Source: Chloroflexota bacterium | GTDB taxonomy: Bacteria > Chloroflexota > Dehalococcoidia > Lucifugimonadales > Australimonadaceae | Assembly (NCBI GenBank): GCA_027618515.1 | Contig: JAQCEV010000014.1 | Location: 1-41,069, forward strand | DNA: 41,069 nucleotides | Direction: 5' to 3' | The notes under the pieces: model-generated | What the model was told of the DNA's origin: nothing | Databases searched by the model: none | Seen by the model: the letters and a program-made list of their open reading frames with translations, nothing else | Part shown: positions 2,737 through 32,864 of the stretch, piece after piece | Layout: the number at the start of each line of letters is the position of its first letter | Position numbering within the stretch: the first letter of the stretch is position 1 | Position numbers and translations under genes: made by a program

Positions 2737-4053
2737 CTAGATGACGTCCTGCGCCATGAGGTCTGCGTAGGTCTCGCGGCGGCGGATCAACGTGGCCTTG
2801 CCGTCGGCGACCATGACGATGGCCGGGCGACCGTTGGCGTTGTAGGTGCTGGCCATCGAAGGCGCGTAGGCCCCCGATGCGGGTATGGCGATGATGTTGC
2901 CAGCCGTGACGGCGGCTATCTGAGCGTCGTGGACGAGGACGTCGCCCGACTCACAGTACTTGCCAGCGATCGTGACGGTGACATCCGGCTCAACCGTCGC
3001 GCGGTCAGCGGTGACGGCGACGTACTCAGACCCGTAGAGCGCAGGACGGATGTTGTCGCCCATGCCACCGTCCACGGAAACGAAGGTACGGACCCCAGGA
3101 ACGTGCTTGATCGCGCCAACCGTATAGATGGCGACGCCAGCCGGGCCTGTGATGGAGCGTCCAGGCTCGATGATGAGCCTGGGCTCTGGCATGTGGTACT
3201 TCGCGCAGCCGTCCTTGAGTGCTTTGACGATGACCTCGGCGTAGGCCGAAGGTGGCGGGGGCTCGTCCGCTTCGGTGTAGGCGATGGCGTAGCCGCCGCC
3301 GGGTGAAAACTCCTGCATGTCGAGGCCAAGCTCACGCATCTCTGACGCGAAGGTCAGCACACGGGTGACGGCTTCCTCGTACGGCTCAAGCTCGAAGATG
3401 GGCGAACCAAGGTGGAAGTGGATGCCCTTGAGGTCGAGGTGCTCCGCTGCGAGAGCGAGCTCGATCGCCTCTTTGGCCTGGCCTGTCTCGATGGGAAAGC
3501 CGAACTTGGAGTCCAGCACGCCAGTCGTGGTGAGCAGGTGAGTGTGGGGGTCGATGCTGGGGGAGACACGGATGAGCACGGTCTGCTTGCGGCCAGCCTC
3601 ACCCGAGAGTTTGTTCAGCAGGTCTAGCTCGTAAAAGCTATCGACGACCACCTGGCCGATGCCCCAGTCCACCGCATCACGTAGCTCTAGGGGAGTCTTG
3701 TTGTTGCCGTGAAAGTAAACGTCAGCCGCTGGCACGCCTGCTGCGCGGAGCACTGCAAGCTCGCCACCAGAAACGATGTCAAAGCCGAGCCCCTGGGCCG
3801 ACAGCATGCGCGCCAGGCCCACGTTGATGAACGCTTTGCTGGCGTAGAGCACCTTGGAGTTGGGGTGGCGCGACTGAAAAGCAGTCCTGAATGCGCTCGC
3901 TTGCGCCTTGAGGGTGGCTTCGTCATAGATGTAAAGAGGCGTGCCGAACTCGGCGGCCAGGTCGACGAGGTCACATCCGCCGATGACCAGGTGATCGAGG
4001 TCGTTGACCTCGGTTGATACGGGAAATACTTTTGCTTTAGGGACGGTCGTCAT
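2737..4053 (-). CDS. lysA: Diaminopimelate decarboxylase
   Basis: PLP-dependent fold-type III decarboxylase of 438 aa catalysing the last step of lysine synthesis, meso-diaminopimelate to L-lysine. The PLP lysine lies in YASKAF near residue 70. Other family motifs visible are FDIVSGGEL, HFHLGS, SPGGGYAI, IEPGRSI, the second-subunit CESGD loop near residue 360, and GAYAPSMASTYN. The usual HIGSQ motif reads HLGSP here, a mild variation. It is the first gene of a lysA-holB-ricT run. The ATG start at 4053 begins an MTTVPKAK leader before the fold. Confidence 0.94.
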   Translation of the reverse strand: MTTVPKAKVFPVSTEVNDLDHLVIGGCDLVDLAAEFGTPLYIYDEATLKAQASAFRTAFQSRHPNSKVLYASKAFINVGLARMLSAQGLGFDIVSGGELAVLRAAGVPAADVYFHGNNKTPLELRDAVDWGIGQVVVDSFYELDLLNKLSGEAGRKQTVLIRVSPSIDPHTHLLTTTGVLDSKFGFPIETGQAKEAIELALAAEHLDLKGIHFHLGSPIFELEPYEEAVTRVLTFASEMRELGLDMQEFSPGGGYAIAYTEADEPPPPSAYAEVIVKALKDGCAKYHMPEPRLIIEPGRSITGPAGVAIYTVGAIKHVPGVRTFVSVDGGMGDNIRPALYGSEYVAVTADRATVEPDVTVTIAGKYCESGDVLVHDAQIAAVTAGNIIAIPASGAYAPSMASTYNANGRPAIVMVADGKATLIRRRETYADLMAQDVI

Positions 4054-26337: not shown

Positions 26338-27399
26338 ATGTCAGCCAGTGAAATAGCGGTGACTCTGGTAGGGATCGCTTCGATCCTCGTTCTTGCCTAT
26401 TTCTTCTTCGGGCCCAAGAAAGCCAAGACTGCGTCCCTGGTCGGTGGTATCCAGGAGATAGAGATCACGGTCAAAGGCGGCTACTCCCCGGACATCATCC
26501 GCGTCAAAGAGGGTGTTCCGGTCCGTCTGAAGTTCAACAGGCAAGAGGCAGGCGATTGCTCGTCCCGCGTCGTCCTGCCTGACTTCAGGGTGAGCAAGAG
26601 CCTCGCCGCCTTCAAGACCACCACTCTTGAGTTCACCCCGGATCGGGCGGGCGAGTTCGGCTTCGCCTGCGGCATGAACATGCTGCACGGGACGCTGATA
26701 GTCGAAGCGGCCGATGCAGGCCCGCGCGAGCCGACCGCCGGGCAAACGGCGACCGCTACCGCAGAGGCGCCTGAACATCACGACCATGAGCACGACGAGC
26801 ACGCGGGGCACACCCACGGATTCGCTCGCGCGGTGGGCGTAGGCCCGACTCTACAAGTTGGTGAATTGGAGAGTGTCGAACTCGCCATTTTCGGTGGCGG
26901 TGTGACCTGCCCGACGTGCGTAACCAACATCGAAGCGTTCATCAACGAACTGCCTGGGGTCGACGACGTCCAGGTCAACTTCGGCGCGGAGCGCGTTGGC
27001 GTGCGATTCGACCCGACGCAGGTGTCCGTCGATGACATGGAGGCCGCCGTTCGATCTGGCGGCTACACGGTACGGCGGCGCGAGAAGCCAGGGTCTCCGG
27101 AAACGGAAGACCAGGAAGCAGCCGAACGCCGAGCGGAGCAGCGCGACCTGACCCGCCGGGTGCTGGTCGGCGCCGTCCTCACCGCGCCCGTGCTGTTCGG
27201 CATGATGACCCATGAATTCTTCAGCCCCGACTGGCTGCCTTCCATCTTCCTGAACCACTGGTTCCAACTCATCCTCATCACGCCGGTCATGTTCTACGCA
27301 GGCTGGCCGATCCACCGCACGGGCTGGCTCGCGCTGAGCCATCGCACCGCTGACATGAACAGCCTTATCACGTTGGGGGCGTTCTCGTCGTACGGGTAA
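26338..27399 (+). CDS. Fragment 1: anchor, cupredoxin, HMA and first ATPase helices
   Basis: Open frame of 353 aa, the 5' part of the broken ATPase. It could still make a membrane-anchored protein carrying a cupredoxin and an HMA domain, ending in the second helix pair at SSYG. Cupredoxin ligands probably include DCSSRVVLPDF and FACGMNMLHG. GGAGG lies about 11 nt before the ATG. Whether this piece is stable alone is unknown. Confidence 0.6.
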   Translation: MSASEIAVTLVGIASILVLAYFFFGPKKAKTASLVGGIQEIEITVKGGYSPDIIRVKEGVPVRLKFNRQEAGDCSSRVVLPDFRVSKSLAAFKTTTLEFTPDRAGEFGFACGMNMLHGTLIVEAADAGPREPTAGQTATATAEAPEHHDHEHDEHAGHTHGFARAVGVGPTLQVGELESVELAIFGGGVTCPTCVTNIEAFINELPGVDDVQVNFGAERVGVRFDPTQVSVDDMEAAVRSGGYTVRRREKPGSPETEDQEAAERRAEQRDLTRRVLVGAVLTAPVLFGMMTHEFFSPDWLPSIFLNHWFQLILITPVMFYAGWPIHRTGWLALSHRTADMNSLITLGAFSSYG

Positions 27400-27429
27400 A
27401 GCCTGCTCGTTACGTTCGCCCCCGATCTC

Positions 27430-28245
27430 GTGCCAGAGAATCTCCGGGCGGTCTACTACGAAGCGGTAGGCGTCATCATCACGCTGATCCTCCTCGGGCG
27501 CCTGCTGGAAGCGATCGCCAAGAGCGGCATGGGCGAGGCGATACGCAAGCTCATCGGCTTGCAGGCCAAGACAGCGCGGATCGAGAGGGACGGCCAAGAG
27601 TTGGAGGTGCCGGTCGACGAAGTGGAGATCGACGACGTGGTGCTCGTGCGCCCTGGCGACAAAGTCCCCGTCGATGGGGAGATCGTCGAAGGCCGTTCCA
27701 CGCTCGACGAGTCCATGGTCACGGGTGAGAGCATTCCCGTCACGAAAGAGGTCGGAGATACGGTCGTAGGGGCGACCATCAATCAGACCGGAGCCTTCAA
27801 ATTCCGGACCACGAAGGTCGGCAAAGAAACCATGCTGGCCCAGATCATCCGGCTCGTTCAGGAAGCGCAATCATCGAAAGCGCCCATCCAACGCATGGCC
27901 GACCTCGTCGCCAGCTACTTCGTCCCCGTCGTCATATTCATCGCCATTGGGACGTTCGTGATCTGGTTCAACTTCGGCCCTGACCCTGTGCTGACCTTTC
28001 TCCTTGGTCAGTGCGGTCGCCGTCTTGATCATCGCCTGCCCATGTGCGCTAGGGCTCGCCACCCCACTCTCCGTCATGGTCGGCACTGGCAAAGGCGCGG
28101 AAAACGGCATCCTGATCCGCTCTGCGGAGGCGCTGGAGACGGCCCACAAGCTCCAGATGCTGGTACTCGACAAGACCGGGACAATCACTCACGGGAAGCC
28201 AGCGTTAACCGACGTGATACCCGCGGGCGAAACTCCGAGAGATGA
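27430..28245 (+). CDS. Fragment 2: ATPase actuator domain, frameshifted end
   Basis: In-frame continuation after the [14 protein letters not shown], the actuator domain with MVTGESIPV, and [14 protein letters not shown] are all normal for P1B ATPases. After about 28000 the frame leaves the ATPase sequence and reads non-homologous residues to a stop at 28243-28245. No ribosome-binding site is seen before the possible GTG at 27430, so independent translation is doubtful. Confidence 0.4.
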
Positions 28246-29365
28246 TCTGCTCCGCTTGGTCGCGTCAGCTGAAAAGAACTCGGAGCACCCCCTGGCACAA
28301 GCCATCGTCCAAGGAGCGGAGGCCGAAGGCCTCGCGCTCTCAGACGCTACAGACTTCCAGTCCATCACCGGCAAAGGGATCGAGGTCACCGTCGACGGCC
28401 GCAAGCTGCTCGTCGGCAACCAACGCCTGCTGGTCGACGCAGGCATGGACATCACAGCACTCATCTTGCAATCGGAGGCGCTGGCCACGCAAGGTAAGAC
28501 GCCCATGTTCGCGGCGATCGACCGGCACCCGGCGGGGATCATCGCCGTGGCCGATACCGTCAAGGAAGACTCCGCACGAGCCGTCGCCGTTCTCCGCCGG
28601 ATCGGCGTAGAGGTCGTCATGATCACCGGCGACAACAAGCGCACTGCTGAAGCGATCGCTCGGCAGGTCGGGATAAGCAGAGTGCTCGCCGAGGTGATGC
28701 CAGAAGACAAGGCTCTTGAGATACGCCGACTTCAAGACGAAGGGAAGATCGTGGGCATGGTCGGCAACGAGATCAACGACGCGCCTGCGCTCGCTCAAGC
28801 TGACGTGGGCATCGCGATAGGCACGGGCACCGACGTAGCCATCGAATCGTCCGATGTAACGTTGATCTCGGGAGAGTTGGGGGGCGTGGTAACCGCAATC
28901 ACCCTCAGCCGGTCCACCATGCGCAACATCAAGCAGAACCTGGTGTTCGCGTTCGGATACAACATGATCGGGATACCCATCGCGGCAGGCGCGCTCTACC
29001 CGTTCTTCGGCCTGCTCCTCAGCCCTGCGATCGCCGCAGCGGCCATGGCGCTCAGTTCCCTATCCGTCGTCACGAATGCCAACCGTCTGCGCCGCTACCG
29101 TCGGCCTGAGCTACCAACCACAATCGCTACAAGCTCAGCCACGACTGCCATCGAGGTCAGTGGCCCATCAGAACACGAACATCATCATCAGGGCGGAGAG
29201 CAGATGGCCACCGTAACCGATCCCGTGTGTGGAATGACTATCGATTCAGCCTCCGCAGCAGCCCACGAAGAGTACGCAGGGGCGACCTATTACTTCTGCT
29301 CGCCTGCCTGCCACGAGAAGTTCAACGCTGATCCAGCGCAGTACGCCACCAGCGCTACGGGATGA
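28004..29365 (+). CDS. Fragment 3: ATPase catalytic domain and YHS domain
   Basis: Frame of 453 aa. It begins at the sixth-helix region ([14 protein letters not shown]) and holds the phosphorylation motif [20 protein letters not shown] and [12 protein letters not shown]. The late motif reads [10 protein letters not shown] instead of GDGxNDAPAL; the lost Asp binds Mg in the family. Two closing helices, a His-rich stretch (EHEHHH) and a YHS domain ([21 protein letters not shown]) follow. The nominal TTG start has no ribosome-binding site. An ATG at 29204 after GGAG could make the YHS part alone. Confidence 0.5.
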
Positions 29366-29492: not shown

Positions 29493-30083
29493 ATGACAAC
29501 GCTTATCGCGACGTTGATCGCCGCCTATTTACTCGGCGGGATACCTACCGCATACCTCCTGGGCAAGCGGTGGCATGAGGTCGATATCCGCACGCTCGGG
29601 TCGCACAACGTCGGCACGTCCAACGCTGCCAAGTCGTTCGGGCCGCGCGCTGGGGCGATCGTGCTTCTCGCCGACGCTACGAAGGGCGCGCTGGCGGCTG
29701 GCCTGGCGCTTGCTCTCAACCTGCCACCGTGGGGCGCAGCGTTGGTGGCGCTAGCGGTCGTCGTGGGGCATAACTTCTCGCCCTACCTACGCCTCAGCGG
29801 AGGACGTGGCGTGGCGACCGCCCTAGGCGTATCGACCGTCATGGTGCCCGCGGTCGCGTTCGTGGGGCTGATTGTGGGCGCGGTGTGGTTCGTAGGCATG
29901 CGAAACATCGTGGGCGCGGGCGTCTTGGCGTTCGCGGTCACCAACGTGCTCGTTGTCGCAACGGGCGCACCCATGCCTGTGCTGGCCATGTGTGGCGCAG
30001 TCTCGATGCTGGTCCTAGGCACCCACCTGGCGCGCGAGCGAAGCGGAACACGGAGAACGGCGATGGAGGAGGTGGAGCGATGA
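29493..30083 (+). CDS. plsY: Glycerol-3-phosphate acyltransferase PlsY
   Basis: Integral membrane acyltransferase of 196 aa that uses acyl-phosphate to make lysophosphatidic acid, the first step of ester-lipid synthesis. Family motifs are LGGIPTAYLLGK, then LGSHNVGTSNAAKSFG (motif 1, with small changes), VVGHNFSPYLRLSGGRGVATALG (motif 2), and the late GTH. Five to six hydrophobic helices are visible. The stop overlaps the next start in an ATGA. The upstream 127 nt hold no gene. Confidence 0.93.
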   Translation: MTTLIATLIAAYLLGGIPTAYLLGKRWHEVDIRTLGSHNVGTSNAAKSFGPRAGAIVLLADATKGALAAGLALALNLPPWGAALVALAVVVGHNFSPYLRLSGGRGVATALGVSTVMVPAVAFVGLIVGAVWFVGMRNIVGAGVLAFAVTNVLVVATGAPMPVLAMCGAVSMLVLGTHLARERSGTRRTAMEEVER

Positions 30084-30625
30084 GTTGGTGGATCATTCCC
30101 GTAAAGCTAGAGACGATCGAAGCGCAATTCAGGGCCGACCGACGCCTCGCGTTTCAAGTGTTGACCGCGTTCGGCAGCAAGAACCAGCAAGCTGGCCCGT
30201 CGCGCGTGTTGCACGAAGCCGACGACGGACGCCGCTTGGTGGAATTCACGTCAGAGACCGGCAGGCCCGGCAAGACAGCGGTCACCCACGAGTGGGTGGC
30301 GGTCGATGAACCTGGCGAGATCCGTTTCTCTGGCGTCAAAGGGCCTCTCCAGCACTTAGAAGACCGGTTCACCCTCGAAGATGACAATGGCTGCACCCAG
30401 TTCCGCTACGAGAGCTCCATAGGCGTACGCGGCTGGTGGTTTGGCTGGCTGATCGCCCGCTTCTACGCGAAAGCGATCGTCGAGCGCATGATGCGCACGC
30501 ACGTGCCCGAGATGAAAGAGGCGATCGAGAATCGCGCCAGCCGGAGCAGCCTATTCCCCCAGACCGGCTGCGCGGCGCAAGCCGATCAGGTCGCAGTCAG
30601 CGCTCTCGCCACCAGTAGCGCATAG
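30080..30625 (+). CDS. SRPBCC-fold protein
   Basis: Probable START/SRPBCC-domain protein of 181 aa. The pattern is ETIEAQFRADRRLAFQVLTAF, then a long antiparallel sheet with VTHEWVAVDEPGEIRFSGVKGPLQHLEDRFTLE and a closing helix WLIARFYAKAIVERMMRTHVPEMKEAIE. Such proteins bind lipids or hydrophobic ligands. The ATGA overlap with plsY suggests translational coupling and perhaps a membrane-lipid role. The last 40 nt overlap the convergent methyltransferase gene, giving a tail with no clear homology. Confidence 0.7.
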   Translation: MSWWIIPVKLETIEAQFRADRRLAFQVLTAFGSKNQQAGPSRVLHEADDGRRLVEFTSETGRPGKTAVTHEWVAVDEPGEIRFSGVKGPLQHLEDRFTLEDDNGCTQFRYESSIGVRGWWFGWLIARFYAKAIVERMMRTHVPEMKEAIENRASRSSLFPQTGCAAQADQVAVSALATSSA

Positions 30626-31383
30626 CCGAGCCGACCGTCGCTCGCAAGGCCTCGCGCCGCCTTCACCGCACGCTTGGCGGGCTCTAGCGTCGTCGCAGGG
30701 ACATCCAGCTTGCCCAGACCAACCGCGATCTCCGCGAGCATCAGGCCATTGCGGGCTTTATCGATGAAACCACCCACCGTGTCCGGCAGGTCACGCGCCT
30801 CCTCGACGGCGAACCCTGCGTCCTCGATGGCGCGAGCGTAGCCGATCAGCGAGATCGCCCCTGCGAGGCATAGCGCAGCGGCCGTGACTCCCTCAAGCTC
30901 CTCCGGGACCTCCCCCTCACGCGTCACGTCAGTGATTGCGAGCGTCCCGCCCGGCTTCAGCACGTCGCGGATGCGCAACAACGCCTCATGCTTGTTCGGC
31001 AACGTCGACAGCACGCACTCCATCACGACCGTGTCGAACGCGGTGAGGTTCGCGGGCATGTCCATGATGTCGCCCTGGACGAACGCCACGCGCTCGGACA
31101 CTCCTTGCGCGGTAGCGTGCGCCTCGCCTTCGGCCACGCCAGCGGCCTCGATGGTCAAGCCCGTCACACGGCACCCCAGCGTCTCTCCCAAAAACACGCT
31201 GCTCACGCCACGCCCAGATCCAGCGTCCAGCACGCGCTGGCCATGGCTGACCCCCGCGGCGCGCGCAAGCTCCAACGTAAGCCCAAGTCCACCAGGGTGG
31301 AATGAATCGCCCATGAGGAACGCTGCCAGCGGGTGGCCGTACAACGTGGAGCAGCACTCGGTGATGGGGTGAAGCTGTGTCAC
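30586..31383 (-). CDS. Class I SAM-dependent methyltransferase paired with radical SAM enzyme
   Basis: Rossmann-fold methyltransferase of 265 aa. Before the fold it has ECCSTLYGHPLAAFLMGDSFHPGG, with a Cys-Cys pair and an FHPGG motif that I associate with a subgroup found beside radical SAM genes. Motif I is VLDAGSGRGVSS; the acidic loop, VQGDIMDMP and LKPGGTLAITDV follow. A helical tail fills the last 90 residues. The GTG start shares its G with the TAG stop of the radical SAM gene, so they are translated together. The substrate is unknown; the Cys pair could bind metal, metalloid or an Fe-S cluster. Confidence 0.85.
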   Translation of the reverse strand: MTQLHPITECCSTLYGHPLAAFLMGDSFHPGGLGLTLELARAAGVSHGQRVLDAGSGRGVSSVFLGETLGCRVTGLTIEAAGVAEGEAHATAQGVSERVAFVQGDIMDMPANLTAFDTVVMECVLSTLPNKHEALLRIRDVLKPGGTLAITDVTREGEVPEELEGVTAAALCLAGAISLIGYARAIEDAGFAVEEARDLPDTVGGFIDKARNGLMLAEIAVGLGKLDVPATTLEPAKRAVKAARGLASDGRLGYALLVARALTAT

Positions 31384-32864
31384 TAGACCTCGTCCAACTC
31401 GATGGTGACGAGGCCCTTCTTGGCCTGGCGCTCAGCCAGGCGTTTCGCGGCCATGTGCGCACGGTCCGCTTCGCGGTAGCCCACGTTGTTGTACGCACAG
31501 AAAGGCACCATTTTGCCTTCCGGTGTGATGATCTCCACGCAACACTTCATCACCTTCTTCACGTCAAACGTATAGGAGTCCATGAAGTCCTTGATGCTGA
31601 TCGCAAACACATGCTTGGCCAACTCATGACCCGACGCGATCAGGCCTAGGTCGCACGCGACGCACTCGAACTGGTCGGCCAGCGTGTCCCCGCCGGGCGC
31701 GGCGCTAGATGACCACAGGCCTTCCAGCGCTACTTTGATATCCGACGAGAACTCAGGCCACGTGCGGTTCGTGATGTAGTCCAGGTAGTCGTCCACGTTC
31801 AGCAAACGCGGCAACGGCGTCACCTTGCCGTCCTCTACGTAGGCGTAGGTGACGGATTGGCACCCTGGGTTGCAGCAGGGCACGGGCACGAAGTCGCTCT
31901 TGGCGAACAGACCCGATGTTTGCTCTGCGATACGCCCGACGACCTCGGGGATCGTGACTCGATCCAACGGATCGAAGTCCGGGTGGCGCCCGGTGTGGGT
32001 GACCGGCTGAAAGTTCACGCCGCGAACCGCCGGGTGTTTCAGGCCGAACTCCACCAGCGGCCCGATCTCGTGTTCGTTAACGCCACGCTCGATGGCGGCG
32101 ACCAATACGGTGTCCAGGTCAAGCTCCGCCAGCCGGTCAAGCGCCTTCAGCTTCTCGGCCAGCAGTGGCTCACCCCTGAGCGTGACGTAGGTTTCGTCCG
32201 TCAGGCCATCGAACTGCAGGTAGATCATCGGCTTGAGTTCGCCGATAGTGGCGGCCCACTCGGGGTCACGGGCGAATCGCAGGCCGTTGGTGTTGATCAT
32301 GACGTGACGGATTCCCTTGGCCTGCGCCAGGCGAACGAAATCAGGGAGCAGGGGATGCAGCGTGGGCTCGCCGCCACTGTACTGAAGCACCTCGGGATCT
32401 CCCTCAGTCCTGACGAAGGTTTCGAGCATCATCTCGACCTCCTCCATCGTCAGGTTGTGACCGGGCCCTGCGTCCGCGAAGCAGGTGGGGCACGCGAGGT
32501 TGCACCCCGTGTTGACCTCGATCAGGCCCAAGCACGCATGCTGCTTGTGCTCGGGGCACAGCCCGCAATCGTGCGGGCAGCCGTCCTTGACCTCGGTCGT
32601 GAACTCCAGGGGGATCGTGCCAGGCTTGTTGAAGCGCACGGAATCCACGTAGGCCTCGGCGTCAGGCGAGATCAGCGCCTCGAACCAACCATGGTCCTTG
32701 CAGCGCTTGCGCATGATCACCTTACCGTCACGCAGGTGGATCTGCGCATCGATGACGCGCCTACACACAGGACACAAGCTGCGGGTCAGCTCATGGAATA
32801 TCGAATCAGCGGTCTTCTTCTTTCGGGTCTCGACCGGAACCGACGGCTTGAACTCGCGCAGCAC
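31383..32864 (-). CDS. Radical SAM enzyme of the MJ0619/COG1964 type
   Basis: Radical SAM protein of about 493 aa. The N-terminal part holds CPVCRR and a later CKDHG, then CPHDCGLCPEHKQHAC. The cluster motif CNLACPTC (Cx3Cx2C) and YSGGEPTLHP are classical. The C-terminal region has more Cys groups: CCNPGCQS, CVACD, KCCVEI and FCAYN, suggesting two or more extra Fe-S clusters. This is the pattern of the family that contains archaeal tetraether synthase Tes. The start is set at GTG 32864, behind GGGGAGGGG; the open frame reaches 33146 but there overlaps the ThDP gene. The substrate is unknown. Confidence 0.85.
   Translation of the reverse strand: MLREFKPSVPVETRKKKTADSIFHELTRSLCPVCRRVIDAQIHLRDGKVIMRKRCKDHGWFEALISPDAEAYVDSVRFNKPGTIPLEFTTEVKDGCPHDCGLCPEHKQHACLGLIEVNTGCNLACPTCFADAGPGHNLTMEEVEMMLETFVRTEGDPEVLQYSGGEPTLHPLLPDFVRLAQAKGIRHVMINTNGLRFARDPEWAATIGELKPMIYLQFDGLTDETYVTLRGEPLLAEKLKALDRLAELDLDTVLVAAIERGVNEHEIGPLVEFGLKHPAVRGVNFQPVTHTGRHPDFDPLDRVTIPEVVGRIAEQTSGLFAKSDFVPVPCCNPGCQSVTYAYVEDGKVTPLPRLLNVDDYLDYITNRTWPEFSSDIKVALEGLWSSSAAPGGDTLADQFECVACDLGLIASGHELAKHVFAISIKDFMDSYTFDVKKVMKCCVEIITPEGKMVPFCAYNNVGYREADRAHMAAKRLAERQAKKGLVTIELDEV

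Follow-up and report, generated by a model that had tools for sequence, protein, structure and literature searches.

A conserved radical SAM and methyltransferase gene pair, related to but distinct from tetraether synthase, with a possible role in organo-metal(loid) or chalcogen chemistry

Branched glycerol dialkyl glycerol tetraethers (brGDGTs) serve as palaeotemperature proxies. Surveys list bacterial homologues of tetraether synthase (Tes), notably those of Chloroflexota and Acidobacteriota, as possible makers of these lipids (PMC8941075, PMC11868695), and Zeng et al. (2022) described Tes homologues from Halobacteria that produce no GDGTs, leaving their function open (PMC8941075). A precedent for a radical S-adenosylmethionine (SAM) enzyme working jointly with a methyltransferase is arsQML, where ArsM is joined by the radical SAM protein ArsL (PMC8552651). 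Here, we analysed a pair formed by a Tes-related radical SAM gene and a methyltransferase gene in a stretch of 41,069 nucleotides from a Chloroflexota bacterium (the window; contig JAQCEV010000014.1, assembly GCA_027618515.1, 3.0 Mb, 94% complete). The radical SAM protein is not Tes, and the pair is tentatively assigned to the chemistry of soft elements.

The radical SAM open reading frame (ORF) opens at 32864 (GTG; VLREFKPS..) and closes at 31383 (TAG). The overlap of its stop with the start of the second gene, described in an earlier note on this DNA, was recovered as one shared base at 31383, and so was the CC...FHPGG head of the methyltransferase, which reads ..TECCSTLYGHPLAAFLMGDSFHPGG... 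The extra cysteine clusters of the same note correspond to the rubredoxin-like, N-auxiliary, radical SAM and C-auxiliary motifs of the Tes protein MJ0619, with additional cysteines. The features of the pair are as follows.

31383..32864, minus strand: radical SAM gene (Tes/TrsS superfamily), 493 amino acids, GTG start, TAG stop
32691..32774, minus strand: rubredoxin-like motif C31..C34..C55..H58 (Zn_ribbon_HMPTM, PF23545), from Pfam and conservation
32547..32579, minus strand: N-auxiliary cluster motif C96/C100/C103/H106, with the family-specific C111 shortly beyond, from alignment
32481..32504, minus strand: radical SAM cluster motif C121xxxC125xxC128, from Pfam and conservation
31860..31877, minus strand: C330 C331 xxx C335, where C335 aligns with a Tes cysteine and C330/C331 are gained
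31653..31664, minus strand: gained CxxC, C401/C404, common to TrsS and haloarchaeal relatives and absent from Tes
31497..31544, minus strand: C-auxiliary cluster region, C441 C442 .. C456, from ligand conservation
31383..31385, minus strand: TAG stop of the radical SAM gene, the G at 31383 being the first base of the methyltransferase GTG
30586..31383, minus strand: class I SAM methyltransferase with Cys-Cys head and HPGG motif, 265 amino acids, GTG start
31351..31356, minus strand: methyltransferase Cys10-Cys11 pair, C11 invariant and C10 in 99%
31288..31299, minus strand: methyltransferase HPGG motif, residues 29-32, kept in haloarchaeal partners too
31015..31017, minus strand: methyltransferase Cys123, invariant, aligning with arsenite-binding Cys174 of CmArsM
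30868..30870, minus strand: methyltransferase Cys172, invariant, aligning with arsenite-binding Cys224 of CmArsM

Membership of the Tes/MJ0619 superfamily, as the earlier note had proposed, was confirmed by structure. The AlphaFold model of the radical SAM protein (predicted local distance difference test score, pLDDT, 87) matched Tes (7TOM) with Z 53.1 and a root-mean-square deviation of 2.9 over 432 aligned residues (36% identical), the next match being MoaA at Z 21, and the nearest solved structure by sequence was tetraether synthase MJ0619 (PDB 7TOL, E=2e-87). Pfam found the HMPTM zinc ribbon and the Radical_SAM domain. The iron-sulfur and SAM-binding motifs are retained, the rubredoxin, N-auxiliary, radical SAM and C-auxiliary ligands being conserved in the paired ("pair-type") proteins as they are in Tes.

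The hallmarks of Tes itself are lost. The window protein scored 338.9 bits against the Tes NCBIfam model (NF045702, cut-off 450 bits), while three thaumarchaeal Tes scored 690-698 bits. Tyr459 of Tes was retained in two thaumarchaeal Tes and replaced in all 63 pair-type proteins, and Met439, a labile ligand of the C-auxiliary cluster in Tes, was Met in two Tes and in TrsS but Q, K, E or R in 63/63 pair-type proteins; in the window protein the first position (directly past C442) is I and the second, upstream, is K. Since the M439A variant of Tes retains activity (PMC9433317), the loss of Met439 is a family mark and not a functional proof. Relative to Tes, Cys111, Cys330, Cys331, Cys401 and Cys404 were gained, and the loop ahead of the cluster residue Cys338, longer in Tes, was shortened. 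In addition, each of three thaumarchaeal genomes carries a true Tes and, separately, one or two pair-type copies. In a quick tree, the pair-type proteins branched apart from Tes and TrsS, with long branches for TrsS and for locus L092. L092 itself (contig C16 of genome G158) lies in an acidobacterial genome holding the pair and a second, more Tes-like homologue (322 bits to Tes), which is a separate candidate for lipid coupling.

The pairing seen in the window was found in a co-occurrence survey to be conserved and operonic. Related radical SAM loci (L numbers) were taken from one scan (68 loci in at least eight phyla, including Nitrososphaerota) and from 40 longer regions, giving 80 loci after removal of duplicates. 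A methyltransferase gene adjoined the radical SAM gene in 70/80, always on the same strand (70/70) and mostly with a gap below 160 bp, and nearly all scan loci with space downstream held a homologous methyltransferase there. Paired loci were observed in Chloroflexota, Acidobacteriota, Actinomycetota, Pseudomonadota and Nitrososphaerota. Searching from the methyltransferase side, 10 of the 12 matches in 151 Chloroflexota genomes adjoined a radical SAM or TrsS gene. The distribution was sporadic (26 of 251 genomes in Chloroflexota, 9/346 in the Nocardia phylum, 6/247 in an acidobacterial phylum, 1/337 in the Bradyrhizobium class and 1/200 in the thaumarchaeal phylum sample, each count taking in the genome used as sample centre), and the pair was also found on a Mycolicibacterium plasmid and on four haloarchaeal plasmids (32-34% identity). 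The haloarchaeal radical SAM proteins have lost the N-auxiliary cluster ligands, and their genes (L169, L170, L171, L172) adjoin DUF547, redoxin, DUF3179, DsrE or dihydrolipoyl dehydrogenase genes.

Six of the ten unpaired loci belonged to a sister subgroup, in which an Lgt-family (prolipoprotein diacylglyceryl transferase) gene lies upstream and no methyltransferase is present (L043, L046-L049, L051, L062, L072, L076, L086, L088, and on plasmids L168 of Mycobacterium branderi and L167 of Persicobacter). Most of the gained cysteines are present and the Tes hallmarks lost in this subgroup, which may act on lipids or lipoproteins.

The partner methyltransferase (model pLDDT 92) carries cysteines at the metalloid-binding positions of ArsM. 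Among its relatives, Cys11, Cys123 and Cys172 were invariant and Cys10 was present in all but one, and in local alignments Cys123 and Cys172 fell on conserved cysteines (NCV; GEC/ECL) of three arsenite methyltransferases (5evj, 4fr0, 8xt7), the match to residues 174 and 224 of CmArsM coming from 4fr0 and 5evj. In CmArsM, these two cysteines are As(III) ligands (PMC3877260). The fold matches were RebM, AtmM and cyclopropane synthases, with AtmM, CmaA1 and MitM in the top rows; since ArsM did not stand out in this fold search, the link to it is drawn from the two cysteines and local alignment. The window protein scored 88.8 bits against the arsenite methyltransferase model (PRK11873, cut-off 263 bits). 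Most relatives have two further cysteines around Cys123 (CECxxC), which the window protein does not.

Genes of mercury and thiol-redox metabolism recur beside the pair. In a large share of loci the pair adjoined a MerA/lipoamide dehydrogenase-type disulfide reductase that uses flavin adenine dinucleotide (FAD), and a mercuric reductase with C-terminal SCC lay within about 10 kb in L014, L026, L050, L064, L111, L112, L131 and L150. These eight loci are independent of one another and come from Chloroflexota, Actinomycetota, Acidobacteriota, a thaumarchaeon and an unclassified bacterium. The TIGR02053 cut-off was passed in six of the eight; the MerA of L026 is a fragment at the end of the locus, and that of L014 was called by similarity and motif. 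Given a base rate of 21% (52/251 Chloroflexota), about 0.1 of 80 loci would be expected to have MerA this close, compared with the eight observed (neighbour counts are approximate, because gene calls in GC-rich loci are heuristic). In an unbiased Chloroflexota sample, seven genomes had both the pair and MerA, two of them within 10 kb (expected 0.04, P ~9e-4). In L011, a ninth mer-linked locus, a MerE protein gene overlaps the methyltransferase stop. Other recurrent neighbours were CcdA, TlpA, VKOR, thioredoxin-like, glutaredoxin-TrxR, AhpD, DUF427, DUF3179 and Crp/Fnr proteins, and ArsR/SmtB-type regulators were found near L112 and a few other loci.

No MerA was found in the window's own genome. 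At about 2019-2705 of L156 (contig C7 of this genome, G000), a gene for a MerB-like organomercurial lyase has in-frame TGA codons at both apparent catalytic Cys positions. Because the genome also encodes a tRNA-Sec (71 bits, over the Rfam cut-off), the product is probably, judged from the sequence, a double-selenocysteine MerB.

In the window, L035 and L065, copper-type P-type ATPases are among the neighbours. The window contains a further heavy-metal P-type ATPase (26338-29365; cupredoxin-like, HMA and YHS parts), the second one, which is broken into three ORFs; the breaks, near 27400 and at 28004-28245, are frameshifts or assembly errors. In L071, a related radical SAM gene runs at its end into a gene for an ArsP_1-type permease (2907-3803), which has a homologue in L072 (515-1414); this placement hints at organometalloid export. 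Bufferin maturase (BufB/DUF692) clusters with sigma factor and NrsF-like genes were seen near the pair in L028, L033, L036, L037 and others (Rhizobiales and some Acidobacteriota). A thaumarchaeal pair has, some 2 kb away, the ergothioneine genes EgtD and EgtB (L061, 146-2580), which both passed their cut-offs. On the other strand of the window, the methyltransferase gene is followed by the two genes that the earlier note had correctly placed there.

30080..30625, plus strand: SRPBCC protein with a Cys near its C-terminus; homologues lie within or next to the pair in L002-L007, L010 and L029
29493..30083, plus strand: plsY, next to the SRPBCC gene

The 3' ends of the SRPBCC and methyltransferase genes overlap by 40 bp, and in L002-L006 the SRPBCC homologue fills the gap between the paired genes.

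Taken together, the lost Tes marks, the gained cysteines, the arsenic-methylase-like partner and the mercury and thiol-redox neighbours make a metal or sulfur compound a likelier object of the pair than a lipid. We therefore tentatively read the pair as a conserved module of two enzymes, often joined by the FAD disulfide reductase as a third member, that would act in organo-metal(loid) or chalcogen chemistry and not in membrane-lipid coupling. As to substrate, order of steps and bond formed, we infer that the thiolates of Cys10-Cys11, Cys123 and Cys172 would bind a soft centre, metalloid or chalcogen, in the way that ArsM binds As(III), and that the methyltransferase would methylate this centre from SAM. 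The radical SAM partner, with its Tes fold and Cys-enriched C-terminal auxiliary site, would generate a 5'-deoxyadenosyl radical that attacks a second substrate and takes a hydrogen off one of its unreactive carbons, and would join that carbon to the thiolate-bound centre through a C-metalloid, C-S or C-C bond. The nearby disulfide reductases and CcdA, TlpA/thioredoxin-like, VKOR and AhpD proteins may maintain the reduced thiols. In a specific version, which is distinctly improbable, the methylated metalloid or chalcogen would be attached to an unactivated carbon such as the lipophilic end of a fatty chain. The pair would then be an arsenolipid-type synthase that gene transfer has carried across bacteria and archaea and that has been concealed among the "bacterial Tes" lipid synthases.

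Several observations weigh against organo-element chemistry. Most pair loci are without any mer gene, the genome-level link to MerA is weak (7 of about 19 pair-bearing Chloroflexota vs about 19% of others), and gathering of unrelated genes in resistance islands can also bring mer genes close. No arsenic operon was seen beside the pair, and a crude search with motifs of ArsR (CVCDL) and ArsM (CYGCG) gave no match. Because Hg(II) itself is not expected to take up a methyl cation from SAM, mercury is unlikely as a direct methylation substrate. The methyltransferase is as near to RebM, AtmM and MitM as to ArsM, in sequence and in fold, its haloarchaeal counterparts keep the Cys123/Cys172 positions but not the N-terminal CC, and the Lgt-linked subgroup shares the radical SAM cysteines yet has no methyltransferase.

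Part of the same evidence would also fit a pair that makes a small redox thiol, metallophore or cofactor, both enzymes tailoring a thiol-bearing scaffold with the FAD enzyme as cognate disulfide reductase, and metal genes adjoining because the product protects against soft metals. The FAD enzyme that immediately adjoins the pair in many loci, the "dihydrolipoyl dehydrogenase" near two haloarchaeal pairs, the recurrence of CcdA, TlpA, VKOR, glutaredoxin-TrxR fusions, AhpD, DsrE and redoxin, the EgtB and EgtD genes beside one thaumarchaeal copy and the natural-product enzymes closest in structure to the methyltransferase are all consistent with this. We nevertheless consider it rather unlikely, as no recurrent scaffold-building genes (ligases, nonribosomal peptide synthetases, amino-acid enzymes) were seen beside the pair, and the two invariant cysteines lie exactly at the ArsM metalloid ligands. 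Should the TrsS/DVU_1556 gene set serve in maturation or cofactor modification, the pair could likewise act on a protein or on a pterin-type cofactor, but such a role is very improbable. TrsS is the best NCBIfam match of the window radical SAM protein and DVU_1556 (NF045667) that of the methyltransferase, a true TrsS gene also adjoins a methyltransferase, and Tes was initially annotated as a pterin methylase (PMC9433317). However, neither cut-off was reached: the radical SAM protein scored 363.9 bits of 490 for NF045646, still above its Tes score (the TrsS reference in L070/L105 scored 543 bits), and the methyltransferase 118.6 of 155. The C-GCAxxG-C-C protein and CoA (coenzyme A) ligase of the TrsS locus L105, read by eye, were absent among the window ORFs, and among the neighbours no molybdenum enzyme was seen to recur.

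The earlier note had preferred C-C coupling or C-methylation of membrane lipids, the radical SAM enzyme joining tails as Tes does and the methyltransferase adding methyl branches. The shared fold, the Lgt gene beside the sister subgroup, the cyclopropane synthases among the methyltransferase fold matches and the proposal of bacterial Tes homologues for brGDGTs (PMC8941075) speak for it, as do plsY and the SRPBCC gene adjoining the pair in the window and L007. As a lipid gene context, this last arrangement was set aside, since plsY recurs in L007 only. The reading found no support and is improbable: the missed Tes cut-off, the loss of both hallmark residues, the coexistence with true Tes in three thaumarchaeal genomes and the quick tree are against it, the partner has ArsM-type cysteines, and the neighbours are mercury, copper and thiol-redox genes, not lipid genes. 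The sporadic, plasmid-borne distribution, and the presence of the pair in haloarchaea when Halobacteria with Tes homologues are reported without GDGTs (PMC8941075), also argue against it. Since no relative of known function places the protein elsewhere, C-C or C-metalloid chemistry on unreactive carbon may still apply.

These results bear on the published Tes surveys. With Val in place of Tyr459, Thr in place of Met439 and a methyltransferase gene alongside, the haloarchaeal copies are pair-type, and the homologues of Zeng et al. are probably the same, so that the pair-type family is a likely answer to why Halobacteria bearing Tes homologues make no GDGTs. At least some of the "bacterial Tes" proposed as brGDGT synthases should belong to this family, and many may; its members can be told by the adjoining methyltransferase gene, by the added cysteines and by the absence of Tyr459 and Met439. 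If the metalloid/chalcogen reading is true, the pair would be a new organo-element enzyme pair in aerobic soil bacteria, haloarchaea and thaumarchaea.

Compared with known systems, the pair-type protein also differs from Tes by its methyltransferase partner. Mss, a bacterial membrane-spanning lipid synthase, is reported to have a Tes-like architecture by structural modelling (PMC13274423) and is likened here by description, not by sequence. TrsS shares Cys111, Cys401 and Cys404 with the pair-type protein and is likewise encoded in a two-gene pairing, but it is without Cys330/331, keeps Met439, and has a reversed gene order and different neighbours, its methyltransferase keeping the Cys123/Cys172 positions without the CC head. 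ArsM has N-terminal Cys motifs of its own where the window methyltransferase has CC. The logic of a radical SAM enzyme joined to a methyltransferase is alike in ArsM with ArsL/ArsS and in the pair, whose radical SAM member comes from the Tes/TrsS superfamily.

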